From assembly GCA_946480245.1 (NCBI GenBank), contig CAMLIZ010000130.1:1-13263 (forward strand): a stretch of DNA of 13,263 nt, given 5' to 3'. The stretch is from an uncultured Pseudomonadota bacterium. Lineage in GTDB: Bacteria; Pseudomonadota; Gammaproteobacteria; Burkholderiales; Burkholderiaceae. Shown here one piece after another: positions 1 through 13,263 of this stretch. Under the pieces are notes generated by a model. The model was given only the letters and a program-made list of their open reading frames with translations. It made no database searches and was not told the DNA's origin. A program made the translations under genes and the position numbers. How positions within the stretch are numbered: position 1 is the stretch's first letter; the number at the start of each line of letters is the position of its first letter.

Positions 1-1408
1 GTGCCAGGTTGAGGCGCGCGAACGCATGGTCGCCGTCGAGCGCGGCATTGCTGCCCGAATCGTCGCGGATGGTGATGCGTGCGCGGTCGTAGCGCGCGCT
101 CAGCGTCGAGCTCCAGCGCGGCGACAGCGCCAGCGTGTCGCTGGCGTACGCGGCCAGCGCGCCGTTGCGCGTGTGCGCATCGGTGTCGAGCTCGAACTCG
201 CCCGCCGGCGTCGTGCCGCGCGTCGCGTCGAAGGTGGCGGGTTGCGCATCGAGCCGGTAATGGGCTGACCCGAAGTCGGCGCTGGCGCCCGCCACGAACT
301 GGTTCTTGTGCCGCCCCAGCGCGCGGCTCGACGTGAACTGCAGGCCCAGGCCCCAGCCCGCCTGCTCCACCGCAGAGCGGTCGTTGAAGGCCTGCACGGT
401 GTCCACGGTGCCGGTGTCGCCGTCGACGCTGCCGTAGTCGCCGTTGACGTTGCTGCTGAGGTTGCCGTTGCGATAGCGGCGCAGGTAGGCGTTGCCGACG
501 ATCGCATCGTCGTCGCCGATCGCGTGCCGCGCCGTGGCGGACAGCATCGCGAGCCGGTTGCGATGGATGTCGGGGTGCGTGTAGGCGGCGCGGATGTCGC
601 TCGCAAAGGACGCGGGCAACGTCTGCGTGCCTTCGAGCCGGTTGTCCGCCAGCGTGAGGCTGGCCTCCACGTCGTCGGCGTCGGCTTGGTAGCCCAGCTT
701 GCCGAAGAACTGCCGGATGCGGCTGGCGTTGTGCTGCTCCCAGCCGTGGTCGCTGGCGGCATGGCCGGTGGCGAACCAGTCCCACGCGCCGGCCGCCCCG
801 CCGTGCGCGAACTCGGCCTCGCGCCGGCCGAACGATCCGCCGGACAACGCCAGCTCGGTGCCCGGCTGGCGCCGGCCGCGCTTGGTTTGCACGGCCAAGG
901 CACCGCCCAGCGTGTTCAACCCGTACAGCGGATTGGAGCCGGGAATCACCTGCAGGCTGGCGATGGCCGAGGGCGCCAGCAGATCCCAGTTCACCACGTC
1001 GCCGAACGGCTCGTTGATGCGCACCCCGTCCTGGTACACCGACAGGCCCTGCGGCACGCCGAGCAGCGGCGACGCGGTGAAGCCGCGAAACGCGATGTCG
1101 GGCTGGTACGGGTTGCCTTGTGCGGCGTTGGCACTCATGCCGCCCGGCTCGGCCTCGAGGAACTCGCCGAGGCCGCCCTGGCGCGAACGGGCCAGCGCGC
1201 GCCCATCGAAGACCTGCACGTTGGCCGGCACATCGCGCAAGGCCAGGCCCAGGCCGGCCAGCGGCGTGAAGCCGACCACCTCCACGCGCTGCAGGTCGGC
1301 CACGTCACCGGCTCGGTCGTCGGCATGCACCAGGCCGCAGGCCAGCGCGCCGGCCACCGCGGCAGCGGCGCGTCGGCGGCGGCGCGTCAGCGGATCGCCA
1401 CGCCCCAC
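1..1408 (-). CDS. TonB-dependent outer-membrane receptor, 3' end cut by window edge
   Basis: About 469 N-terminal codons are visible; the rest of the barrel lies beyond the left edge. The minus-strand reading frame gives an Arg-rich start, a hydrophobic stretch ending in a likely signal-peptidase site (GLVHA), then a TonB-box-like LQRVEVVG. A complete plug domain follows, with recognisable motifs such as DIAFRGFTASPLL, YQDGVRINEPFGD, NWDLL, IPGSNPLYGLNTLGGAL. After it come alternating beta-barrel strands. The family imports scarce ligands across the outer membrane using TonB energy; the ligand here is unknown. It is the last visible gene of the PQQ alcohol dehydrogenase operon and overlaps the end of the beta-propeller gene by 22 nt, so translation is probably coupled. 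The start is uncertain: I chose an in-frame GTG at 1408, but no good ribosome binding site is visible and no ATG is better placed. Its position suggests a role in supplying PQQ, a lanthanide or a substrate to the periplasm (inference). Confidence 0.88.
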   Translation of the reverse strand, partial: MGRGDPLTRRRRRAAAAVAGALACGLVHADDRAGDVADLQRVEVVGFTPLAGLGLALRDVPANVQVFDGRALARSRQGGLGEFLEAEPGGMSANAAQGNPYQPDIAFRGFTASPLLGVPQGLSVYQDGVRINEPFGDVVNWDLLAPSAIASLQVIPGSNPLYGLNTLGGALAVQTKRGRRQPGTELALSGGSFGRREAEFAHGGAAGAWDWFATGHAASDHGWEQHNASRIRQFFGKLGYQADADDVEASLTLADNRLEGTQTLPASFASDIRAAYTHPDIHRNRLAMLSATARHAIGDDDAIVGNAYLRRYRNGNLSSNVNGDYGSVDGDTGTVDTVQAFNDRSAVEQAGWGLGLQFTSSRALGRHKNQFVAGASADFGSAHYRLDAQPATFDATRGTTPAGEFELDTDAHTRNGALAAYASDTLALSPRWSSTLSARYDRARITIRDDSGSNAALDGDHAFARLNLA

Positions 1409-2331
1409 GGCAGCTTGCCAACCGGCACGTCGGCGATCTTCACGAGGTGTTCGGTGTCGATCACCGACACCGCGCCCGAGCGCCCACAGGCCACATACAG
1501 CTTGCGGCCGTCGGGCGTGAGCGCCATGTTCCAGGGCCGCTGGCCCACGCCGATGGTGGCCACGATGGCCAGCGTGGCCGTGTCGAGCACCGACACGCTG
1601 GCCTCGCCGCCGTTGGAGATGAACACGTACCGGCCGTCGGGTTGCACGGCGATGCCGTTGCTGCGCACGCCGGCCTTGACCCGGGCGCGCACGCTGAAGT
1701 CCCGCGTGTCGATCACGTACACCTCGCTCGCGTTCTCGGCGGCGACGTAGGCCACCCGGCCATCGGGCGAAAAGCCGATGCCGCGCGGACGCGCCCCCAC
1801 GGCGACCTGCGCCACCTGGCGGCGCTGTGCCACGTCGATCACGTCCACCGCCCCGCCCTCTTCGGCGCTCACCAGCACGAGCCGGCCATCGGGGCTGAAC
1901 ATCGCGTGCTCGGGGTTCTTGCCGCGCACCGCCACCGCAAAGGCCTTGCGCTGCGTCTGCGTGTCGACGAACGCGATCTGGTTGCCCTGCTCCACCGCCG
2001 CGATCACCCAGCGGCCGTCGGGCGACAGGCCCAGGCCTTCGGGCGATTCACCCAGCGCGATGGTGCCGGCGGACTTGCGCGCATCGAGGTCCACCACCAC
2101 CAGCTGGTTGCCCGGCTGGTCGCTCACATAGGCCGTGCGACCATCGAGCCCGATCACCACGCCGCGCGGCTTGCTGCCGGCGGCGATTTCGCCCACCACC
2201 TGGTCGGTCGCGGTGTCGATCACGCTCAACGTGCCCGAGCCCTCGTTGGGCACGTAGGCGAACGGTGCGGCCAGCGCAGCCGGCACGGCCAGCATCAGCA
2301 TGCCGGCGAACAGAAACGAAGCGACGCGCAT
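1387..2331 (-). CDS. PQQ-catabolism-associated YVTN beta-propeller protein, periplasmic
   Basis: A 314-residue protein with a signal peptide (residues 1 to about 21, ending PAALAA), followed almost entirely by seven roughly 42-residue propeller repeats. Each repeat shows the pattern xSVIDTAT...G..P.G...SPDGR..YV (for example near residues 24-70, 100-123, 145-166, 188-208, 230-250, 271-292). It resembles the family often named PQQ-dependent catabolism-associated beta-propeller protein, which sits beside quinoprotein alcohol dehydrogenase genes. The molecular function of that family is not established; a scaffold or chaperone role for periplasmic redox proteins is only a guess. The ATG at 2331 is preceded by GGAG seven bases upstream and yields a normal signal peptide. 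An upstream ATG at 2364, which overlaps the b561 stop as ATGA, would add 11 residues before the signal peptide and is less likely. The 3' end overlaps the start of the TonB receptor gene. Confidence 0.9.
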   Translation of the reverse strand: MRVASFLFAGMLMLAVPAALAAPFAYVPNEGSGTLSVIDTATDQVVGEIAAGSKPRGVVIGLDGRTAYVSDQPGNQLVVVDLDARKSAGTIALGESPEGLGLSPDGRWVIAAVEQGNQIAFVDTQTQRKAFAVAVRGKNPEHAMFSPDGRLVLVSAEEGGAVDVIDVAQRRQVAQVAVGARPRGIGFSPDGRVAYVAAENASEVYVIDTRDFSVRARVKAGVRSNGIAVQPDGRYVFISNGGEASVSVLDTATLAIVATIGVGQRPWNMALTPDGRKLYVACGRSGAVSVIDTEHLVKIADVPVGKLPWGVAIR

Positions 2332-2360
2332 GGTGCAACTCCACGAAGCAGGCAGCGGGT

Positions 2361-2918
2361 TCATGGCCGTGCCCACGGCCACATGCGCGCGACGATGCCG
2401 TCGCGCTCGACGAAGGCGTGCGCCAGCGCAGCGGCCACATGCGCGGCGATCGCGGCCACGAAGAGCCAGCCCGTGGCCACATGCAGCCCGTTCAACAGCG
2501 TATAGAGCGCAGGCAGGTCCGGGCCCCAGGGCTTGAGCGCGATGCCGAAGAAGCGCACACCGTGCTTGCTGAAGTTCGACGCCAGCCAGCCCGACAGCGG
2601 CAGCAGCAGCATGCAGGCATACAGGGTGCGGTGGCCGAGCACGGCCGCACGCCGCTGCCAGCGCGGCATCGACATCGGCAGCGCGGGCGGCCGATGCGCC
2701 AGCCGCCAGGCCAGCCGGCACAGCACCAGCAGGCCCAGCACGATGCCGATCGACTTGTGCAGGTTGATCACGCCGGCGCGCGCCGGCGTGCCACGCGGCG
2801 CCAGCTCGTCGAGCAGCAAGCCGAACGCGATCTGCCCGAGCAGCAGCGCGCCGAGCAGCCAGTGCATCGCGATCGCCACGGCACCGTAGCGCTGCGGGGC
2901 TGCGCGCGCCGCGGCCAT
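2361..2918 (-). CDS. Cytochrome b561 family membrane protein
   Basis: A 185-residue integral membrane protein of the bacterial b561 (CybB-like) family. Four hydrophobic segments lie near residues 15-37, 55-75, 95-113 and 148-168. Candidate haem-b ligands are H19 (AMHW), H54 (NLHKSIG), H146 (GLHVATGW) and H160 (AAHVAAAL), placed as expected for two transmembrane haems. Members pass electrons between the quinone pool and periplasmic partners. Here the gene directly follows a cytochrome c gene (stop and start share a base, TGATG) inside the quinoprotein operon. It could therefore connect periplasmic cytochrome c with the membrane quinones (inference). The ATG at 2918 was chosen because it follows the cytochrome c stop and gives the standard short N-terminus before the first histidine segment. 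Length is normal for the family. Confidence 0.92.
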   Translation of the reverse strand: MAAARAAPQRYGAVAIAMHWLLGALLLGQIAFGLLLDELAPRGTPARAGVINLHKSIGIVLGLLVLCRLAWRLAHRPPALPMSMPRWQRRAAVLGHRTLYACMLLLPLSGWLASNFSKHGVRFFGIALKPWGPDLPALYTLLNGLHVATGWLFVAAIAAHVAAALAHAFVERDGIVARMWPWARP

Positions 2919-3304
2919 CACGGCCTCTGCCGCAGCGTGCTGAGGTAGGCGATCACGTCGGCGCGATCGCTCGCGTCCGGCACCGCGAAGAACATCTTCA
3001 CGCCATGCAGCACCTGCCGCGGGTTCGTGAGGTAGGCGTCCAGTCGCTGCTCGTCCCACACCTTCCACTGCCGGCTGACCGCGCGCATCTTCTTCGAGTA
3101 GTCGTAGCCGTGCACCGAGGCGATCGGGCGGCCCACCACGTCGAACAAGGTGGGGCCCACCTGGTTCACGCCGGCCTGCGTGGAATGGCAGTTGGCGCAG
3201 GTCTTGTCGAACAGCGCCTGGCCGGCCGCTGCGTCCGCCGCGCGTGCGCCCGTGCACAGGGCCAGGCCGGCGACGGCGAGCGCGACCGCGTGATGCAATC
3301 TCAT
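2918..3304 (-). CDS. Class I c-type cytochrome, periplasmic
   Basis: A 128-residue exported monohaem cytochrome. A signal peptide (residues 1 to about 22, ending GARA) is followed by the haem-binding CANCH (C36, C39, H40) and a mitochondrial/c2-like fold: GPTLFDVVGRP, GYDYS, W80, and a C-terminal PRQVLHGVKMFF in which M104 is the likely second axial ligand. It probably accepts electrons from the quinoprotein alcohol dehydrogenase, directly or through the cytochrome domain encoded just upstream, and passes them to an oxidase or to the adjacent b561 protein (inference). The ATG at 3304 has a strong ribosome binding site, AAGGAGAT, ending a few bases upstream. The frame stays open further upstream into the preceding gene, but that extension lacks a signal peptide at its start and is discarded. 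The stop overlaps the b561 start by one base. Confidence 0.94.
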   Translation of the reverse strand: MRLHHAVALAVAGLALCTGARAADAAAGQALFDKTCANCHSTQAGVNQVGPTLFDVVGRPIASVHGYDYSKKMRAVSRQWKVWDEQRLDAYLTNPRQVLHGVKMFFAVPDASDRADVIAYLSTLRQRP

Positions 3305-3327: not shown

Positions 3328-4437
3328 TCACTTGTCCTGCAGGGATTTCAGGTAGGCGAGGATGTTGGTGAAGTCCTGGCGCGTGAACACGTCCTTCCAT
3401 GTGGGCATGCCCTTGGCCGGCCGGCCGTCGGTGACGGTGGTGAAGAACACCTCGTCCATCTGGTCGCCGTACTTCAGCTTCAGCCGCCGCAGGTTGATCC
3501 TGCGGTCCTCGACGACAGCGTTGGGGCCGTGGCAATGCGCGCAGGTGCCGTTGAAGATCTCCTTGCCGGCCACCGCGTTGCCTGCGGCCGGCTCCGCCGC
3601 CGCAGGGGCGGAGGCGGAGGCGGCGCCGGCCAGTGCCAGCTGCATCGGGCCGGCATCGGTCATCGTCACGGCAGGGGCCGCGGCAAGGACCGCGTACTTC
3701 ACACCCAGCTCATGGATGCGCGGCGCCAGCTGTGCCAGCACCTTGTCCACGTCGTCGCGCAGCGCGGCCTGCTTCTTCGAGAAGCCGATGGCCGCCTCGA
3801 ACTGCATTTGCGGCGCGGCCACCGGCGTCACGTCGAACGCGTCGTGCAGCGTCGAGCGGTTGATGTAGCCGGCGCTCGGGCCCCACACGAAGGCGGCGTC
3901 CACCTCGCCGGCAGCCAGGCGGCGCATCGCCTCCTCCGGGTCCATCACCGTCACCGAGGTGACGTCGTTGCGCAGGGCCAGCAGGCTTTGCGGCGGCGAG
4001 CCGAACTGCACCGCCACGCGCTTGCCCTTCAGTGCATCGACGCTGACCACCGGATGCGCCTTGGGCGAGACCAGTGCATAGCCCAGCGTGAGGATGGGCC
4101 GCGAGAAGACCACGCGCGGGCCCATGAAGTCGGCCACGGCCGGCAGCCCCACGGCCAGGTCGCACCGGCCGGCCAACAGCGTGGCGCCCAGGTTGCGCTT
4201 GCCGAAGTAGCTGAGCGACCACACGGTTTCCATGGGCCGCCCCAACGCCTCGGCCACGGCCTGGCCGATCTCGACGTACAGGCCGGGCGCGCCCTTGTCG
4301 CGCGCCTCGGGCGCATTGCTGCTGAAGGGCAGGTTGGCGGGATCTGCGCACAGGCGCAGGGGTGCTGCCGCGGCCTGCGCGGCCGCCGCCGCGCAAGCCA
4401 TCGCCGCCATCAGTGCTGCAAAGGTGGCGAGTCGCAT
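3328..4437 (-). CDS. Periplasmic binding protein (MxaJ/XoxJ-like) fused to a cytochrome c domain
   Basis: A 369-residue two-domain periplasmic protein. Residues 1 to about 25 form a signal peptide. Residues 26 to about 255 are a family-3-type solute-binding fold: PLRLCADPANLPFSS at the start, GLYVEIGQAVAEALG, the LLAGRCDLAVGLPA segment, and the second-lobe LKGKRVAVQFGSPP. This is like the quinoprotein dehydrogenase-associated binding proteins related to MxaJ/XoxJ. An Ala/Pro-rich linker (about 268-290) leads to a c-type cytochrome domain with CAHCH (C299, C302, H303) and a probable Met ligand M344 in KGMPTW. In methanol dehydrogenase systems J and G (cytochrome) are separate partners of the enzyme; here they appear as one chain, probably the immediate electron acceptor docked to the dehydrogenase (inference). 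The ATG at 4437 follows the dehydrogenase stop by 4 nt, with its GGAG inside the end of that gene. An upstream ATG at 4467 would lie within the dehydrogenase gene. Confidence 0.9.
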   Translation of the reverse strand: MRLATFAALMAAMACAAAAAQAAAAPLRLCADPANLPFSSNAPEARDKGAPGLYVEIGQAVAEALGRPMETVWSLSYFGKRNLGATLLAGRCDLAVGLPAVADFMGPRVVFSRPILTLGYALVSPKAHPVVSVDALKGKRVAVQFGSPPQSLLALRNDVTSVTVMDPEEAMRRLAAGEVDAAFVWGPSAGYINRSTLHDAFDVTPVAAPQMQFEAAIGFSKKQAALRDDVDKVLAQLAPRIHELGVKYAVLAAAPAVTMTDAGPMQLALAGAASASAPAAAEPAAGNAVAGKEIFNGTCAHCHGPNAVVEDRRINLRRLKLKYGDQMDEVFFTTVTDGRPAKGMPTWKDVFTRQDFTNILAYLKSLQDK

Positions 4438-4441
4438 CGCA

Positions 4442-6148
4442 TTACTCCGAGAAGACGAAGATGGCACCGCCTTCGGGCGTGGCTTCGGTCATCTTCTTGC
4501 CCACGTCACCCAGGAAGGCCGGGATCGACGCGGTGCGGCCGACCACGATCGCCACGTACTGCTTGCCGCCCACCGAGTAGCTGATCGGGCCGGCGCCGAT
4601 GCCCGAGCCCAGCGAGGCCTGCCACAGCTCCTTGCCGTTCCTGGCGTCGAAGGCGTGGAAGATGCCGTGCAGGTCACCCCAGAACGTGAGGCCGCCGGCG
4701 GTGGTGAGCGTGCCGCCGTTGAACGGCAGGTCGGTCTTGACGCCCCACACCTTCTTCTGCGCCACCGGGTCCCAGGCCACCAGCTCGCCCATGTAGCCGC
4801 CGGGGCCGGGCATGGTGGGGAAGTCGGCACCCAGGTAGAACACGCCCTTGCGGTAGTTCACCTCCGACACCGACCAGTCCATGCACACGTTGTTGGTCGG
4901 GATGTAGACCAGGCCCGTATCGGGGTTGAACGACATCGGCTGCCAGTTCTTGCCGCCGATCAGGTTGGGGCACACGCCCTTGACCGGATGGTTGGGGCCG
5001 GGCCGCATCGCGGGGTCGGCGTCGGGCTGGCCGGTGGCCACGTCGATCTTCGAGGCCCAGTTCGTGGGAACGTACTTCTCGGCGGAAACGATCTTGCCGT
5101 TCTCGCGATTGACCACGTAGAAGAAGCCGTTGCGATCGGCCTTCAGGTAGACCGGCGTCTTCTGGCCCTTGATCTTCAGATCGGCCAGCACCAGCTCGTT
5201 GACGCCGTCGTAATCCCATGCGTCTTCGGGCGTGGCCTGCACCCACCACTTGATCTTGCCGGTGTCGGCGTCGAAGGCCACCGTGCTCGACGAATACAGG
5301 TTGGTCAGCTTGCCGTAGTTGACGTCGCCGGTGCTGCGCACGGCGGAGTTCCACGGGCCGGGATTCGAGGTGCCCCACAGCACGGTGTTGGTCTTGGGGT
5401 CGTACGAGCCGACCAGCCAGGCCACGGCGCCACCGTGCTGCCAGCTGTCGCCCTTCCAGGTGTCGTTGTTGGCCTCGCCGGGGCCAGGCACCGTCCAGGT
5501 CTTCCACACCTCCTTGCCGGTGTTCACGTCGTAGGCCTGCAGGCTGCCGCGGGCGCCGTACTCGCCGCCGCCGAAGCCGGTGATGACCTTGTCACGCACC
5601 ACCAACGGCGGCGAGGTGATCACCGAGCCCTGCTTGTAGTCGACCACCGTGGAGGTCCACAGCTCCTTGCCGGTGGCTGCGTCCACCGCGGACAGCTTGC
5701 CGTCGAGGCGACCGACGAAGATCTTGCCGTCGGCATAGGTCACGCCGCGGCTGTTCACGTCGCAGCACGCGTACTGCAGCGTGTCGTCGGGGATGTCGGG
5801 CTGGTAGGTCCACTTGCGCGCGCCGGTGCGCGCGTCGAGCGCGTACACGAACTTCGGGCCCCACGACGTGCTCACGTACATGGTGTCGCCGATCACGATC
5901 GGCGTGGCCTCGTTCGAGCGCAGCGAGCCGAGCTGGAACGAGTACGCCAGCTTGAGCTTGCCGACGTTGGCCGCGTTGATCTGCTTGAGCGGCGAGTAGC
6001 GGGTGTTGTCGTAGCCGCGGCCGTACATCGGCCAGCCGTTGGCGTCGGCGGCGTTGCCGTCGGCTGCGTGCGCCAGCGTGGCCAGCGCGGCGCCGGCAAG
6101 CAGCGTGGCCGAGCGCAGCAGGCGCATCAGGGGCTGTGGGTGAACCAT
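4442..6148 (-). CDS. PQQ-dependent alcohol dehydrogenase, lanthanide-type active site
   Basis: A 568-residue periplasmic quinoprotein that oxidises alcohols to aldehydes and gives electrons to cytochrome c. A signal peptide (1 to about 28, ending TLAHA) precedes an eight-bladed propeller. Visible family features are NTRYSPL near 48-54, the adjacent-cysteine pair C128-C129 that forms a disulfide above PQQ, GGGEYG with metal ligand E196, SNPGPWN with N262, the catalytic D312 in WDYDGVNE, and R339. D314, two residues after the catalytic Asp, is the residue that marks lanthanide-using XoxF, ExaF and PedH; calcium enzymes usually have Ala, Ser or Thr there. There is no CxxCH, so this is not a quinohaemoprotein. 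Substrate is unproven: ethanol or other short alcohols, or methanol as in the Mdh2 enzymes of Burkholderiales, are possible. The ATG at 6148 has GGAGGAG upstream. It lies 22 nt after the aldehyde dehydrogenase gene and 4 nt before the fusion gene. Confidence 0.95.
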   Translation of the reverse strand: MVHPQPLMRLLRSATLLAGAALATLAHAADGNAADANGWPMYGRGYDNTRYSPLKQINAANVGKLKLAYSFQLGSLRSNEATPIVIGDTMYVSTSWGPKFVYALDARTGARKWTYQPDIPDDTLQYACCDVNSRGVTYADGKIFVGRLDGKLSAVDAATGKELWTSTVVDYKQGSVITSPPLVVRDKVITGFGGGEYGARGSLQAYDVNTGKEVWKTWTVPGPGEANNDTWKGDSWQHGGAVAWLVGSYDPKTNTVLWGTSNPGPWNSAVRSTGDVNYGKLTNLYSSSTVAFDADTGKIKWWVQATPEDAWDYDGVNELVLADLKIKGQKTPVYLKADRNGFFYVVNRENGKIVSAEKYVPTNWASKIDVATGQPDADPAMRPGPNHPVKGVCPNLIGGKNWQPMSFNPDTGLVYIPTNNVCMDWSVSEVNYRKGVFYLGADFPTMPGPGGYMGELVAWDPVAQKKVWGVKTDLPFNGGTLTTAGGLTFWGDLHGIFHAFDARNGKELWQASLGSGIGAGPISYSVGGKQYVAIVVGRTASIPAFLGDVGKKMTEATPEGGAIFVFSE

Positions 6149-6170: not shown

Positions 6171-7691
<1,521 letters not shown>

Positions 7692-7743
7692 GAAAGGTCT
7701 CCTGCGATTGAGAGGGAGTGGGCCGTGGAACGCGGCTCAAATC

Positions 7744-7758
7744 GCAATAGCCATGCCA
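7744..7758 (-). promoter_or_regulatory. Sigma-54 promoter for the aldehyde/alcohol dehydrogenase operon
   Basis: Read on the minus strand the sequence is TGGCATGGCTATTGC. The -24 GG and the -12 GC are separated by exactly 10 bp, and 10 of 11 consensus positions of TGGCACG-N4-TTGC match. Transcription would begin near 7732, about 41 nt upstream of the aldehyde dehydrogenase ATG, leaving room for the AGGAG ribosome binding site. Sigma-54 promoters need an enhancer-binding activator, so the operon is probably inducible. Confidence 0.75.
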
Positions 7759-7854
7759 TCCACACCATGCGGCGCAGCGGGCCGCAAAGCTCAGGCCTTA
7801 CCCTTGGATGCGGTGTTCGCAAGGCATCGGTGTCACGCCGGCCTGGTACAGCGT

Positions 7855-7871
7855 TGTGCCGCAATGGAACA
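7855..7871. promoter_or_regulatory. Candidate activator-binding palindrome between the two sigma-54 promoters
   Basis: The 17-bp sequence TGTGCCGCAATGGAACA has arms TGTGCC and GGAACA (reverse complement TGTTCC), which match at five of six positions around a 5-bp spacer. It lies about 97 bp upstream of one promoter and 66 bp upstream of the other, a usual distance for an upstream activator site. Looser half-sites (TGTCAC at 7831, GGTACA at 7845) lie next to it. The binding protein is unknown; an AcoR-type Fis-family activator would fit the gene content. Confidence 0.4.
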
Positions 7872-7937
7872 GTGCAGGCGTGCTGTCATGGCGCACTCGG
7901 GCGTTGCAGCCTGGGCGGCCCATGGGGTCGATCGGAT

Positions 7938-7952
7938 TGGCACGCACCTTGC
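7938..7952 (+). promoter_or_regulatory. Sigma-54 promoter for pqqU
   Basis: The sequence TGGCACGCACCTTGC matches all 11 conserved positions of TGGCACG-N4-TTGC, with 10 bp between the -24 GG and the -12 GC. The expected transcription start is near 7963-7965, essentially at the ATG of the downstream receptor gene. The transcript would then have no leader, or the receptor start or promoter assignment needs correction. Confidence 0.7.
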
Positions 7953-7964
7953 GGCCGCGTCGTC

Positions 7965-10145
7965 ATGCTCCTCGCTCATCGCTTCCCCCACCCGCTGCCT
8001 CGCCTGCTGCGCGCAGCCTGCGTGCTGTCCCCCGTGCTGCTGTGGCCCGCGGCATGGGCGCAGTCGTCCGATGCGCCGCCCGATGCGCAGCCGCTGCCGG
8101 CGGTGGTGGTCACCGCCACGCGCACCGAGGCGTCGGCGTTCGACATCCCGGCCTCGATCGATCGCATCGACCGGAGCGTGATCGAGACCGGCCGTGCGCA
8201 GGTCAACATCTCCGACAGCCTGGGCGGCGTGCCGGGGCTGGTGGCGCGCGACCGGCAGAACTACGCCCAGGACGTGCAGATCTCGGTGCGCGGCTTCGGC
8301 GCGCGCTCCACCTTCGGCATTCGCGGCGTGCGCCTGTATGTGGATGGCATTCCGGCCACCTTCCCCGATGGGCAGGGGCAGATCTCCAACGTCGACCTCG
8401 GCTCGGCCGATCGCATCGAGGTGCTGCGCGGCCCGTTCTCGGCGCTGTACGGCAACTCGTCGGGCGGTGTGATCCAGGTGTTCACCGAGGACGGCGCGGC
8501 GCCTCCCCGGCTGAGCTTCAGCGTTGCGGCGGGCAGCAACGGCCTGCTGCGCGTGGGCACCAAACTGAGCGGCGCCACGAACGGGCTGGGCTATGTGTTG
8601 AGCGCCAGTCATTTCGAGACCGACGGCTGGCGCGAGCACAGCGCCGCGCGGCGCGACCTCGGCAACGCCAAGCTCACGCTGCACCCCGACGACGCCAGCA
8701 CGGTGACGCTGATCGCCAACAGCATGGCGCTGCCCGGTGTGCAGGACCCGCTGGGCCTGACGCGCGCGCAGTTCGATGCCGCACCGCGCAGCGTGGATGC
8801 GTCGGCATTGACCTTCGACACGCGCAAGCATGCCGATCAAACCCAGGGCGGCCTGATCTACGAGCGCCGCATCGATGCGGCCAACACCGCGCGCGTGCTG
8901 CTGTACACCGGCCACCGCAACACCGAGCAGTTCCAGTCCATTCCGGTGGCGCCGCAGGCCAACCCGCTGCACCCCGGCGGCGTGATCGAGCTGGCCAGCG
9001 ACTACCGCGGCGCCGACCTGCGCTGGACCACGCGCGCCACGCTCGCCGAGCGCCCGTTCACGCTGGTGGGCGGGCTCGCCTACGACACCTTGCAACAACA
9101 GCGCCGGGGCTACCAGAACTACGTGGGCACGCCGCCCGACGCAACTCCCGGCGTGCAGGGCGCCCTGCGGCGTGACCAGACCGACACCGCCGGCAACACC
9201 GACCCGTACGTGCAGGCGGTGGTGCAGCTGAGCCCGGCCTGGTCGGTGTCAGCCGGGGTGCGGCACAGCAGCGTGCGCATCGACTCGCAGGACCACTACA
9301 TCGTGGGCACCAACCTCGACGACAGCGGCGCCGCGCGCTACAGCGCCACGCTGCCGGTGCTGGCCACGATGCTGGCGCTGAGCAACCAGGTGCACGTGTA
9401 TGCGGCCGCGAGCCGCGGCTTTGAAACGCCGACGCTCAACGAGCTGGCCTACCGGCCGAACGGCGCCACGGGATTGAACTTCGACCTGCGCCCCGCGCGC
9501 AGCGACAACGTGGAGCTGGGCGTGAAGGCGCGCCCTGCCGGTGCAGGCGAGCTGAGCGCCGCCGTGTTTGCCACGCGCACCACCGACGAGATCGTGACGC
9601 TCACCAATCTCGGCGGCCGATCGACCTACCAGAACGCCGGCGCCACGCGGCGCACGGGCTTCGAACTCGCCTGGTCCACCCACCTGGCCAGGGATCTGCG
9701 CGCACAGGCCGCGTTCACCGCCATCGACGCGGTCTATGCCGACAGCTTCCTCACCTGCAACGGGAGCCCGTGCGCTGCGGCCAACCAGCAGGTGATTCCG
9801 GCCGGCAATCGCATCCCCGGCGTGCCGCGCACGGCATTGCAGGTGTCGCTGGCGTGGACGCCGACGCTGGGCTGGCGCGCCGGGGCCGAAGCCCGCGCAC
9901 TGAGCCACGTGCAGGTGAACGACGCCAACTCCGATGCTGCGCCCGGCTACGTGGTGGCCGGCGCCTACCTCGGGTATGCGGTCAGCGTCGGGTCATGGGA
10001 GTTGAGCAGCTACGCGCGTGCCGACAATCTGTTCGACCACCGGTATGCCGGCTCGGTGATCGTCAACGAAGGCAACGGCCGCTACTTCGAGCCCGCCGCC
10101 GGCCGCGCATGGTCGGCCGGGGTGTCGGGCACGCTGAGGTTCTGA
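7965..10145 (+). CDS. pqqU: TonB-dependent receptor of the PqqU/YncD family (PQQ uptake)
   Basis: A 726-residue outer-membrane receptor with a signal peptide of about 32 residues (ending AAWA), a TonB box near LPAVVVTATR (44-53), a plug to about residue 200, and a 22-strand-type barrel ending in the terminal Phe usual for outer-membrane proteins. Long stretches match E. coli YncD as I remember it: RQNYAQDVQISVRGFGARST, GIRGVRLYVDGIPAT, LRGPFSALYGN, SRGFETPTLNEL and, near the end, VGSVIVNEGNGRYFEP-like sequence (here AGSVIVNEGNGRYFEP). YncD was renamed PqqU after it was shown to import PQQ. The gene is divergent from a PQQ dehydrogenase operon, which fits cofactor scavenging. The ATG at 7965 is the only start giving a full signal peptide, yet no ribosome binding site precedes it and a sigma-54 promoter ends 12 nt upstream. 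Family assignment is strong; ligand specificity is inferred from homology. Confidence 0.9.
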   Translation: MLLAHRFPHPLPRLLRAACVLSPVLLWPAAWAQSSDAPPDAQPLPAVVVTATRTEASAFDIPASIDRIDRSVIETGRAQVNISDSLGGVPGLVARDRQNYAQDVQISVRGFGARSTFGIRGVRLYVDGIPATFPDGQGQISNVDLGSADRIEVLRGPFSALYGNSSGGVIQVFTEDGAAPPRLSFSVAAGSNGLLRVGTKLSGATNGLGYVLSASHFETDGWREHSAARRDLGNAKLTLHPDDASTVTLIANSMALPGVQDPLGLTRAQFDAAPRSVDASALTFDTRKHADQTQGGLIYERRIDAANTARVLLYTGHRNTEQFQSIPVAPQANPLHPGGVIELASDYRGADLRWTTRATLAERPFTLVGGLAYDTLQQQRRGYQNYVGTPPDATPGVQGALRRDQTDTAGNTDPYVQAVVQLSPAWSVSAGVRHSSVRIDSQDHYIVGTNLDDSGAARYSATLPVLATMLALSNQVHVYAAASRGFETPTLNELAYRPNGATGLNFDLRPARSDNVELGVKARPAGAGELSAAVFATRTTDEIVTLTNLGGRSTYQNAGATRRTGFELAWSTHLARDLRAQAAFTAIDAVYADSFLTCNGSPCAAANQQVIPAGNRIPGVPRTALQVSLAWTPTLGWRAGAEARALSHVQVNDANSDAAPGYVVAGAYLGYAVSVGSWELSSYARADNLFDHRYAGSVIVNEGNGRYFEPAAGRAWSAGVSGTLRF

Positions 10146-10283
10146 GGCCAGCCCGTGCCTCTGCGGCGGGCGCTGATACGCGCCGTTCACCGAGCGTTAC
10201 CCACCGATGGCACACCTGCGATCGAGCGGACACGCGCCGACCCTAACCTGCCCTCGTCCAATTCCTTTGCGCAGGAGCAGAGC

Positions 10284-10616
10284 GTGCCCTCACCCGTCAT
10301 CGAGCAGAAGTTCCACAACGAAGAAGCAGGGGCGCCCATCACCCATTGCTGGCCCCGGCCCGCGGGCAAAGCGCTCAGCATCGACCAGCGAATTGCCGCC
10401 ATGCGCAGCTTCCTCACGAGCGCCGGCCTTGATGCGAGCGACTTCGAGATCGAGCTGAAGCCGCAGTCGTGGCTCACCGGCATGCTGGGCATCGGCGACA
10501 GGTTCCTGGCCGTTCGCCGGCGCTCGTCGCGCCGCGAGCGGATTTATTCGGCGGAGCTCCATACGCCCTGGATGGCGGAGCTATTGAACGATCTGGAGCA
10601 CGGCGAATTCGCCTGA
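10284..10616 (+). CDS. Small uncharacterised cytoplasmic protein
   Basis: I do not recognise this 110-residue protein. It has no signal peptide, membrane segment or cysteine motif (a single Cys in ITHCWPRP). The N-terminal third is polar, residues about 30-50 look helical (IDQRIAAMRSFLTSAG), the middle contains an acidic then basic stretch (DFEIELKPQ, then RRRSSRRER), and the C-terminus is acidic (ELLNDLEHGEFA). I chose the GTG at 10284 because AGGAG lies six bases upstream. The frame stays open further upstream to an ATG at 10155, but that extension is low-complexity and lacks a ribosome binding site. Codon bias is like that of its neighbours, with GC-rich third positions, which supports it being real. 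It stands alone between pqqU and a convergent kinase gene, and nothing in the context reveals a function. Confidence 0.65.
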   Translation: MPSPVIEQKFHNEEAGAPITHCWPRPAGKALSIDQRIAAMRSFLTSAGLDASDFEIELKPQSWLTGMLGIGDRFLAVRRRSSRRERIYSAELHTPWMAELLNDLEHGEFA

Positions 10617-10641: not shown

Positions 10642-12756
10642 CTAGCTCGTTCGCCGTGCGCCGAAGCGCGCCAGTGCAGCGCGCAGGTCCCGCAGGCGTG
10701 GTGGCTTGGCCATCACGAGATCGAAATGGCCGGCGCTGCTGGCGTCGGTGCTCAGCGCCTCGCCCCAGCCGCTCAGCAGGATCACCGGCGTGGCCGGCGA
10801 TGCCTGCTTGATGGCCCGCGCCACACCGTGGCCGTCGACCTCGGGCATGCCGAGGTCGGTGAACACCGCCTCGAAAGGCTGGCCCGCCGCCTGCCCGGCG
10901 AGAAAGGCGTCGATGCCGGGTGCCCCGCCTTGCGCGGGGGTCACCTGCTGGCCGGCCGCCTTGAGCATGGTGACCAGCGTCTCCAGCACCAGCGGGTCGT
11001 CGTCGATCACCAGCACGCGCAGCACCGGCGGCGGGGGTGAGGCTGCAGCGCGCGGCGTGGCGGGCTGCTGCGCCACCGGCGGAAAGCGCAGCGTGATGGT
11101 GGTGCCGGCGCCGGGCCGGCTATCGATCGACAGGTCGGCGCCATGCCGCTGGGCCATCGAGTGGACCATCGCCAGGCCCATGCCGGTGCCACGCTCGCCC
11201 TTGGTGGTGAACAGGGGATCGAGGCAGCGCTTCAGCGTGTCCTCGTCCATCCCGTTGCCGGTGTCCGACACGCACAGGTAAGCGCCGCCACGCGAGGCCG
11301 GTGCATGCGCGCCGTCGGTGGCCGTGATCCCCGTGGTCAGCTGCAGCCGGCCGCCCCGCGGCATGGCGTCGACTGCGTTGAGCACCAGGTTCAGCAGCGC
11401 CTCGCGGATTTCGCTCTCGGAGCCGAGCACGGAGGGCACCTCGCCCAGGCTCGTCTGCACCTCGATCTCGAGGCCCTGGCGCCGCGCCATGTCGGACCAG
11501 CGCGCCTGGCTGATCGAGACCACCTGCGGCACCAGCGCATTCAAGGACAAGGGCGCCATCGCCTGCTGCACATCGCGCGGCCGGTAGAACTCGCGCAGGC
11601 GCCCGGTGATCGCCGCCACGTCCTGCAGCGCCTGCACCAGCGTGGCAAGGCGCGACCGGCCGGCATCGCTCAGGTGCGCTTCCTCGGCCAGCAACTGCTC
11701 GCCGAAATGCAGGGCCGGCATCAGCAGGTTGCCGATGTCGTGCGCGACGCCGCTGGCCATCTCGCCCACCGCACGCATCCGCTCGTTGCGGATCGTGGCC
11801 TGCTGGCCGCGGTGCAGCTCGTCATAGGCGCAGCGCACCGACGCCAGCAACTCGGCCTGGTGCGTGGCCAGCGCCAGGTGCGCACTCAACTGGCCCAGGA
11901 ACTCGCAGTCACTGCTGCTGAAGGCGTGGCGCTGCGCGCGCGCCGCGATGAGCACGGCAAACACGCCCTGCTGCGAGCGCAGCGGCGCCAGCACCACCGA
12001 TTGCAGGCCGCCGCGTGCCAGGCGCGCCGCAAACGGCAGCGGCACGGCCGGCGTATCGGGCTCGTAGACCAGCGTGCCGTTCGCGCAGCGTGCCATGCCG
12101 TTGGGGTCGATCGGCAGGCCGCGGCCGCTCTCCTGCGCCAGCTCGGCGGCGAACGCCCCGCCGCGCACGCCGACGTGCGTGATGGCCACGGTGGTCCGGT
12201 CTCTCGACACGTGGCCGATGCACGCGCACGCCAACGGCATGCGCTCTTCGATCGAGCGCACCGCCACCTGGTAGATGCTGTCGATGTCCTGGTGCTCGCC
12301 GATCGCGCGCGTGATGTGGTCCAGCAGGTGCAGCCGGGCCAGCTGCGCCTGCATCCGCGCCTCGGCGTGCTTGCGCTCGGAGACGTCGCGCGCGATCTTC
12401 GAGGCGCCCACCACCTGCCCGTGCGCGTCGTAGACCGGCGAGATGGTGACGGACACGTCCACCCGCGTGCCGTCCTTGCGCAGGCGAACGGTCTCGAACG
12501 GCGGCACGCGCTCTCCGCGCGCGATGCGGGCCAGGATGCCGGGCTCTTCATCGAGCCGGTCGGCCGGAACGAGGATCGCGACCGGGCGCCCCAGGATCTC
12601 CTCGGCGGTGTAGCCGAACAGCCGCTCGGCCCCGGGATTCCAGCTGGTGACGATGCCCTGCAGCGTCTTGCCGACGATCGCGTCGTCAGACGACTCCACT
12701 ATGGCGGCCAGCCGCGAGGCAAGGTCGTCGGGGGCAGAGCGGAGCGGCGAATCCAT
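10642..12756 (-). CDS. Soluble hybrid sensor histidine kinase (PAS-GAF-HisKA-HATPase-receiver)
   Basis: A 704-residue cytoplasmic signalling protein without transmembrane segments. Residues about 12-130 form a PAS domain (SSDDAIVGKT, SWNPGAERLFGY, FETVRLRKDGTRVDV, ARDVSERKHAE). Residues about 140-305 form a GAF domain. The kinase core follows: the H-box GVAHDIGNLL with phosphoacceptor H339, the N-box LNLVLNAVDAM (N460), DTGNGMDE (498-505), FTTKGERGTGMGL (G2 box). After a Pro-rich linker, a receiver domain spans about 579-697 with acidic D585-D587, phosphoacceptor D634 (FTDLGMPE), S662 and K684. The C-terminal receiver suggests a phosphorelay or self-regulation, since no output domain is present. 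Signal and partner are unknown, and no response-regulator gene is adjacent. The ATG at 12756 places the PAS domain near the N-terminus; only a distant GAGG lies upstream. The frame extends to an ATG at 12939, but that part overlaps the divergent gene and looks like repeat sequence. Confidence 0.92.
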   Translation of the reverse strand: MDSPLRSAPDDLASRLAAIVESSDDAIVGKTLQGIVTSWNPGAERLFGYTAEEILGRPVAILVPADRLDEEPGILARIARGERVPPFETVRLRKDGTRVDVSVTISPVYDAHGQVVGASKIARDVSERKHAEARMQAQLARLHLLDHITRAIGEHQDIDSIYQVAVRSIEERMPLACACIGHVSRDRTTVAITHVGVRGGAFAAELAQESGRGLPIDPNGMARCANGTLVYEPDTPAVPLPFAARLARGGLQSVVLAPLRSQQGVFAVLIAARAQRHAFSSSDCEFLGQLSAHLALATHQAELLASVRCAYDELHRGQQATIRNERMRAVGEMASGVAHDIGNLLMPALHFGEQLLAEEAHLSDAGRSRLATLVQALQDVAAITGRLREFYRPRDVQQAMAPLSLNALVPQVVSISQARWSDMARRQGLEIEVQTSLGEVPSVLGSESEIREALLNLVLNAVDAMPRGGRLQLTTGITATDGAHAPASRGGAYLCVSDTGNGMDEDTLKRCLDPLFTTKGERGTGMGLAMVHSMAQRHGADLSIDSRPGAGTTITLRFPPVAQQPATPRAAASPPPPVLRVLVIDDDPLVLETLVTMLKAAGQQVTPAQGGAPGIDAFLAGQAAGQPFEAVFTDLGMPEVDGHGVARAIKQASPATPVILLSGWGEALSTDASSAGHFDLVMAKPPRLRDLRAALARFGARRTS

Positions 12757-12808
12757 GCAGGTCGAGCCTCGCAGGCTAGAAGCGGCACGCTGCACTGCCT
12801 TGGCATGA

Positions 12809-12865
12809 CCCTTCCGCCCGTGTGGCCCCCAACCCGGCCCTTCGTCGGGCAGGGGTGAGGAAGGG
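12809..12865. repeat. Long imperfect hairpin in divergent intergenic gap
   Basis: Outer arms CCCTTCC (12809-12815) and GGAAGGG (12859-12865) enclose a second stem, CCCC (12827-12830) with GGGG (12852-12855). A third stem, CCCG (12833-12836) with CGGG (12846-12849), closes around a 9-nt loop. The layout resembles REP-like palindromes dispersed in intergenic DNA, but only one copy is visible here. Confidence 0.4.
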
Positions 12866-12922
12866 CGCGCACGGGGAACCTGATTGAATGGCGCTTCGTC
12901 CATCTTCGGGAGAACGACTGTG

Positions 12923-13263
12923 ATGAGCAAGAACACCATCTGCCTCTGGTACGACGGCGCCGCGCTCGAAGCCGCGCAGTTCTACGCGGCCACCTTCCCT
13001 GACAGCGCCGTGAAGGCGGTGCACCACGCCCCCGGCGACTACCCTGCGGGCCAGCAGGGCAACGTGCTGACGGTGGAGTTCACCGTGATGGGCATCCCTT
13101 GCCTTGGCCTGAACGGCGGCCCGGCCATCCAGCACAACGAGGCCTTCTCGTTCCAGGTGGCCACGGACGACCAGGCCGAGACCGATCGCCTGTGGAACGC
13201 GATCGTGCGCAACGGCGGCCAGGAAAGCGCCTGCGGCTGGTGCAAGGACAAATGGGGCATCTC
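12923..13263 (+). CDS. PhnB-like VOC-superfamily protein, 3' end cut by window edge
   Basis: The first 113 residues of a small cytoplasmic protein of the VOC (glyoxalase/bleomycin-resistance) superfamily, in the PhnB-like group often labelled 3-demethylubiquinone-9 3-methyltransferase. The label is historical; methyltransferase activity is not established for the group. Typical features are FYAATFPDS (residues 20-28), the second-strand LTVEFTVMGIPCLGLNGGP, NEAFSFQV (72-79), ETDRLWNAIV and CGWCKDKWGI at the cut end; the last two normally lead into a short terminal SWQ motif. The ATG at 12923 is preceded by GGGAG ten bases upstream; an adjacent in-frame GTG at 12920 is an alternative start with better spacing. 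It is divergent from the histidine kinase gene. Its substrate is unknown. Confidence 0.9.
   Translation, partial: MSKNTICLWYDGAALEAAQFYAATFPDSAVKAVHHAPGDYPAGQQGNVLTVEFTVMGIPCLGLNGGPAIQHNEAFSFQVATDDQAETDRLWNAIVRNGGQESACGWCKDKWGI

Follow-up and report, generated by a model that had tools for sequence, protein, structure and literature searches.

A predicted sigma-54 control region between an exaC–PQQ alcohol dehydrogenase operon and a PqqU-type receptor gene

The window, by which we mean the whole stretch of 13,263 bases analysed here, is organized around two divergent units: a minus-strand operon that opens with an exaC-type acetaldehyde dehydrogenase, and a plus-strand gene for a PqqU-type TonB-dependent receptor. 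The genes of these units and the features between them are listed here in order of position.

2..1408, minus strand: second TonB-dependent receptor, truncated by the end of the window (PF07715 and PF00593)
1387..2364, minus strand: YVTN beta-propeller protein (TIGR02276 repeats above the cut-off, TIGR03866 below it; start approximate)
2361..2918, minus strand: cytochrome b561 (PF01292)
2918..3304, minus strand: cytochrome c (PF00034; start placed by eye)
3328..4437, minus strand: periplasmic binding protein fused to cytochrome c, MoxJ-2-like (MoxJ-2 model below its cut-off; start placed by eye)
4442..6148, minus strand: PQQ-dependent alcohol dehydrogenase, methanol/ethanol family (TIGR03075, 661.5 bits, cut-off 480; start placed by eye)
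6171..7691, minus strand: exaC-type acetaldehyde dehydrogenase, first gene of the operon (NCBIfam ExaC equivalog, 934.7 bits, cut-off 900)
7758–7744, minus strand: -24/-12 sigma-54 site TGGCATGGCTATTGC, GG-N10-GC, aimed at exaC (ATG 7691); as predicted promoter of the exaC operon (7744..7758) it would give a start at about 7732 and a leader of about 41 nt, with the RBS AGGAGA before the ATG
7854..7872, palindrome: putative activator (enhancer) site, CTGTTCCATTGCGGCACAA on the minus strand (19.6 bits, matrix trained on 63 relatives)
7938–7952, plus strand: -24/-12-like site TGGCACGCACCTTGC, GG-N10-GC, aimed at the receptor (ATG 7965)
7965..10145, plus strand: PqqU-type TonB-dependent receptor, 726 aa (signal peptide judged by eye)

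The gap between exaC and the receptor gene, read directly, spans positions 7692–7964 (273 nt). The order of the minus-strand genes (exaC, alcohol dehydrogenase, binding protein–cytochrome fusion, cytochrome c, cytochrome b561, YVTN protein, second receptor) is identical in a related locus, L099. On the 3′ side of the PqqU-type receptor, an ORF of 153 aa (10155–10616, plus strand) has no Pfam or NCBIfam match and is a putative gene at most, and positions 10642–12939 of the minus strand encode a hybrid sensor kinase with PAS, GAF, HATPase and receiver domains.

The best solved relative of the receptor is the Escherichia coli PQQ transporter (9c4o; 631 bits, aligned over residues 40–726). Against the NCBIfam PqqU model NF041535 it scores 793 bits, short of the cut-off of 1200 (two related receptors score 769 and 755), so the PqqU name rests on the published signature of Y, F or W at position 99 with R304 and R365 (PMC12124388), for which the window receptor carries F117, R318 and R380. 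Of that paper's 12 PQQ contacts, the 11 named in its available text were mapped, and ten of the 11 are identical (Q84, Q121, K274, R304, Q308, Q310, R365, N477, Y481 and R536); at the remaining one Y99 is replaced by F, which the signature accepts (PMC12124388). The likeness to E. coli PqqU lies in the extent of the alignment, in F/Y99, R304 and R365 and in eight more contacts, and the difference in the NCBIfam score.

Both -24/-12 motifs had been reported in a sequence-only reading of this DNA, as strict GG-N10-GC matches that each point toward one of the two divergent units and that are very unlikely to share such a gap by chance. Direct reading confirmed the positions, strands and spacing in the 273-nt gap, with the minus-strand motif directed at exaC and the plus-strand motif at the receptor. 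Using a scoring matrix built from a sigma-54 consensus (TGGCACG-N4-TTGCW) with weights of our own choosing, we obtained scores of 15.2 for the minus-strand and 15.6 for the plus-strand motif. These are the top two sigma-54-like sites of the window, the sole other match of at least 10 scoring 11.4, and in both the GG-N10-GC core sits within a TGGCA...TTGC context. Sites of at least 15.5 number 43 in 2.63 million strand-bases (79 related loci and the window), which gives a chance expectation of 0.0045 per 273 nt of one strand, some of the 43 probably being real sites. A looser search of the window, with three mismatches allowed, returned 141 matches against 157 expected, and since such matches show no excess, only near-perfect ones are informative.

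The exaC side was compared across relatives belonging to the same GTDB family as G002, a record from the Burkholderiales; ExaC matches at 1e-250 occur in 170 of the 399 genomes of that family. The upstream set consisted of 65 relatives and the window, 60 of the regions being our own picks from the listed matches (the top ones and a spread of weaker ones). A site scoring at least 10 lies within 250 nt of the exaC ATG in 64 of the 66 regions, the window counted, and these related genomes are not independent, but the core stays constant while spacing and flanking sequence vary. Controls from the same regions were far sparser: 8/66 on the antisense strand, 1.45/66 after shuffling, and 4/130 in blocks 1.0–1.25 kb upstream. 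All but three of the 64 sites begin TGGCA, and the -12 C of the best sites lies 41 to 160 nt from the ATG. The two regions in which no -24/-12 site was detected over these 250 nt are L157 and L193; the former comes from G081, whose receptor is among the closest in the matches listed (68%). We regard it as near certain, from this comparison, that the minus-strand motif is a real sigma-54 promoter of the exaC operon.

The palindrome at 7854–7872 went unmentioned in the sequence-only reading. Upstream of the exaC promoters, inverted repeats of the form CTGT-N11-ACAG occur in 20 of the 64 regions (the window among the 64); from this count we chose a symmetric seed, and the matrix was then iterated without the window, which was left out of the training yet was present in the first count behind the seed. 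The iterated matrix yielded 61 sites from the 63 training regions, with a consensus of approximately CTGTTCCRTTTYGGAACAG; two of the 63 relatives have no palindrome scoring above 5. The score of the window palindrome was matched by none of the shuffled regions (0/630), and palindromes of at least 18 bits number 10 in 1.30 million bases (79 receptor loci). Its centre lies at -131 from the exaC start and at -101 from the start predicted on the plus strand. In 26 of the 63 relatives the centre of the best palindrome lies 124 to 131 nt before the predicted start, and in the others that have one it ranges from -77 to -277, so that the 101 nt of the receptor side fall within the exaC range. It is likely that the palindrome is an enhancer shared by the two sites.

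A candidate for the protein that would bind it is encoded beside exaC in many relatives, a homologue of the L099 activator being divergent from exaC in 38 of 65 (a few regions being short and a few matches partial). The L099 activator has GAF, sigma-54 interaction (AAA+) and Fis-type HTH domains, which we take to be the AcoR architecture. A tblastn search of the whole window with this protein gave no match at 1e-5, and the PqqU-type receptor here occupies the place that the activator gene holds, divergent from exaC, in many relatives. Because the exaC-side site recurs (64/66) and the activator site is conserved, it is very probable that expression of the PQQ enzyme operon depends on an activator. 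The case for the exaC promoter and its predicted enhancer is about as strong as sequence comparison allows.

The acoD/exaC-type acetaldehyde dehydrogenase of Ralstonia eutropha is under the control of sigma-54 and AcoR. The exaC promoter and enhancer belong to this known kind, in line with the remark in the sequence-only reading that sigma-54 control of acoD-type genes is known. The ExaC equivalog, the -24/-12 promoter and the GAF/AAA+/Fis-HTH activator divergent in 38/65 relatives are common ground; unlike the acoD system, the window is without the activator gene and has the PqqU-type receptor divergent instead, and its operon continues into the PQQ alcohol dehydrogenase and cytochromes.

Sigma-54 sites also recur at loci of related receptors. 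A strict same-strand site lies upstream of the receptor in 19 of 79 loci, of which 18 have one of at least 15 in the 2.5 kb before the gene, none of them more than 1,544 nt away, and the nineteenth, L021, was added, having a site of 16.0 just before the receptor ATG that the start estimate had placed just inside the gene. The remaining 60 loci, some on short contigs, lack a strict site over that distance. Same-strand sites of at least 15 number 17 in the 1.5 kb before the receptor and 0 to 4 in each of the other 1.5-kb bins; on the opposite strand there are none in the 1.5 kb before the receptor and eight at 3.0–4.5 kb upstream. In 16 of the 18 loci the site stands 1.3–1.55 kb upstream of the receptor, and in L029, the sole annotated locus of these, site and receptor are separated by genes for a PedF-type cytochrome and a binding protein, with a second AcoR-like activator divergent. 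Among the 26 receptor loci with an activator match, 17 were examined for site and palindrome, and 15 were found with a site of at least 17.6 and 15 with a palindrome of at least 9 bits. A site of at least 14 directly precedes the receptor in L021, L024, L043 and L072; a palindrome was sought before the receptor at these loci and found in L021 (17.7 bits, directly before the receptor) and L043 (12.7 bits, at -220 from the ATG), with none in L024 or L072. Taken together these sites make sigma-54 control of PqqU-type receptors elsewhere likely.

Several other features of these loci deserve mention. The palindrome centre is fixed at -43/-44 from the predicted start of the receptor-leading operon in 14 of 17 loci (L029, at about 7494–7538, and 13 receptor loci), which is unusually promoter-close for an enhancer. 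Eight loci (L022, L025, L027, L028, L029, L032, L037 and L076) carry an extra site and palindrome on the minus strand, and in L029 pqqB (4160–5092, minus strand) lies behind AGGCACGGGTCTTGCA and a palindrome. Back-to-back sigma-54 sites with a palindrome between them are present in three of the 65 exaC relatives (L147, L150 and L158), where exaC faces a PQQ-alcohol-dehydrogenase-like gene with a predicted leader of 55–58 nt; the facing gene was matched to the L029 PQQ alcohol dehydrogenase (genome of L158), and in L147 and L150 was assigned by its similar start. L168 has an opposite-strand site of 13.5 near exaC, with no gene behind it.

The receptor-side site of the window matches the motif well but is awkwardly placed. 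It ends 12 nt 5′ of the receptor ATG, a detail absent from the sequence-only reading, and predicts a start at 7964, or at 7965 if a purine is preferred, the ATG itself being at 7965. No RBS was found before this ATG (duplex energy -1.7, against -7.4 for exaC), and the usual leader with an RBS downstream of the start is not what this site would produce. Because the start falls on the ATG, the RBS is absent and the signal peptide favours 7965, the site would work only through a leaderless mRNA. Such spacing is not avoided in the family: in searches of 100 family genomes each, the matches listed include 99 motifs followed by an ATG at 11–13 nt, 73 at 5–7 nt and 56 at 17–19 nt, with backward-pattern controls of 10, 5 and 12, the ATGs being candidate start codons. 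The excess at 11–13 nt could come from a preference for a purine or for a given start nucleotide. In Sinorhizobium meliloti, 171 leaderless start sites are described, all AUG (PMC3616915).

The coincidence of start and ATG and the missing RBS would also be explained by a one-sided switch, in which the minus-strand promoter and palindrome serve exaC alone, the plus-strand match is either fortuitous or the decayed remains of a site, and the receptor is expressed from an unrecognised promoter. Yet a match of the quality of the plus-strand motif has the low expectation given above for 273 nt of one strand, and no sigma-70-like promoter for the receptor was detected in 7600–8100. The relatives divide on the point: strict sites occur at 19/79 receptor loci, but are missing from the other 60 and from 17 of the 20 best-scoring relatives (the three with a site being L034, L009 and L074), and the receptor of G002 (L001), whose exaC operon is ordered as in the window, is also without one. 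We lean against the one-sided switch, while regarding it as quite possible. An ordinary leader would be restored if the plus-strand site were used and the receptor translated from a downstream GTG, for which in-frame codons exist at 8022 (58 nt past the predicted start) and at 8034 (70 nt past it), but either start would cost the protein the basic part of its signal peptide, and codon-position composition is coding-like from 7965 (GC3 0.85 vs 0.62 upstream), so that this reading is very improbable. That neither motif is a promoter is hardly credible, for although loose matches are no commoner than in shuffled sequence, the minus-strand site and the activator site both recur in relatives.

With moderate confidence we therefore favour the two-sided reading: PQQ-dependent alcohol oxidation would form a sigma-54 regulon, and the gap would hold its control region. 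In the presence of alcohol or aldehyde, the palindrome would be bound by an AcoR-like activator (GAF, AAA+, Fis-type HTH) whose gene lies outside the window; by looping, this protein would reach the sigma-54 RNA polymerase on the exaC promoter and turn on exaC along with the genes for the PQQ alcohol dehydrogenase and its cytochromes. Less certainly, the palindrome may serve the plus-strand site as well, with its start 101 nt off, and the receptor mRNA may be leaderless, beginning at AUG, in which case cofactor import and enzyme would rise together. The earlier prediction that a TonB receptor for the cofactor and the enzyme using it form one activator-dependent regulon gains support on the exaC side (64/66 regions and a conserved activator site) and for receptors in general (strict sites at 19/79 loci). 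The part that fared less well is the plus-strand motif as promoter of this particular receptor, which is plausible and unproven: the predicted start lies on the ATG, whereas the best exaC sites keep at least 41 nt from theirs; none of the 79 receptor relatives faces an exaC-type gene; and a strict site is present in three of the 20 best-scoring relatives. The regulon idea as such is supported by the relatives. The fullest picture, in which one enhancer, bound by an AcoR-like activator, serves two back-to-back sigma-54 promoters, the importer mRNA being leaderless, and sigma-54 regulons of pqqB, PqqU and PQQ enzymes exist in part of the Burkholderiales, we put forward tentatively, as somewhat short of probable.

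The same arrangement was also sought elsewhere. None of the 79 receptor relatives has an exaC-type gene divergent beside it, and no receptor divergent from exaC appeared among the matches listed in the 399-genome searches, as read by eye. Receptor and exaC lie 8–24 kb apart in G008, G021, G038, G151 and G311 (among the matches listed). A receptor homologue (44–45%) lies beyond exaC on the same strand in two genomes, again among the matches listed, at about 0.6 kb in G213 (receptor homologue and exaC within C2 29520–33752) and about 3.2 kb in G345 (C2 162436–169127); co-transcription of the two genes is possible there. Eight loci (L056, L057, L058, L060 and L062–L065), mostly Halopseudomonas-type records, have a distant aldehyde dehydrogenase (32–33% identity) divergent about 1.1 kb upstream of the receptor, and none of the eight has a plus-strand sigma-54 site of at least 10 before the receptor. 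In a plasmid search, the best 20 of 119 records align to the exaC part only. The idea of sigma-54 sites at alcohol dehydrogenase operons without exaC was rejected, none of 11 such loci having a site of at least 13 before the dehydrogenase gene (the best scored 11.7, in an odd place); a receptor lies behind the dehydrogenase in five of the 11.

The orp operons of Desulfovibrio vulgaris have a divergent arrangement. They are like the two units predicted here in being jointly regulated and sigma-54-dependent, as described in the available text of PMC3897727, and unlike them in that the genes of the window are unrelated. In the Pseudomonas ped cluster, too, PQQ alcohol dehydrogenases occur alongside an aldehyde dehydrogenase of the ExaC type (PedI). 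This cluster differs in that the available text of PMC12997753 names the PedS2–PedR2 system, and sigma-54 once, for CbrB; PqqU did not turn up in that paper. For PqqU itself, a 2025 study describes the gene as usually non-syntenic with the PQQ synthesis operon, taken as suggesting independent regulation, and as syntenic with PQQ synthesis genes in four Burkholderiales genomes; the words ‘promoter’ and ‘sigma’ occur 0 times in its main text (PMC12124388). We found no published report of sigma-54 control of PqqU-type receptors in a search that mostly lay outside the subscription literature.

The reading favoured here suggests one concrete way in which the scavenging of a shared cofactor could be geared to demand for it. 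The site before pqqB in L029 predicts that PQQ synthesis, too, would be under sigma-54 control, and the sites as a whole predict that activators are shared in some of the Burkholderiales, as against the independent regulation suggested in PMC12124388. The palindrome may, moreover, be used to list the members of the regulon.
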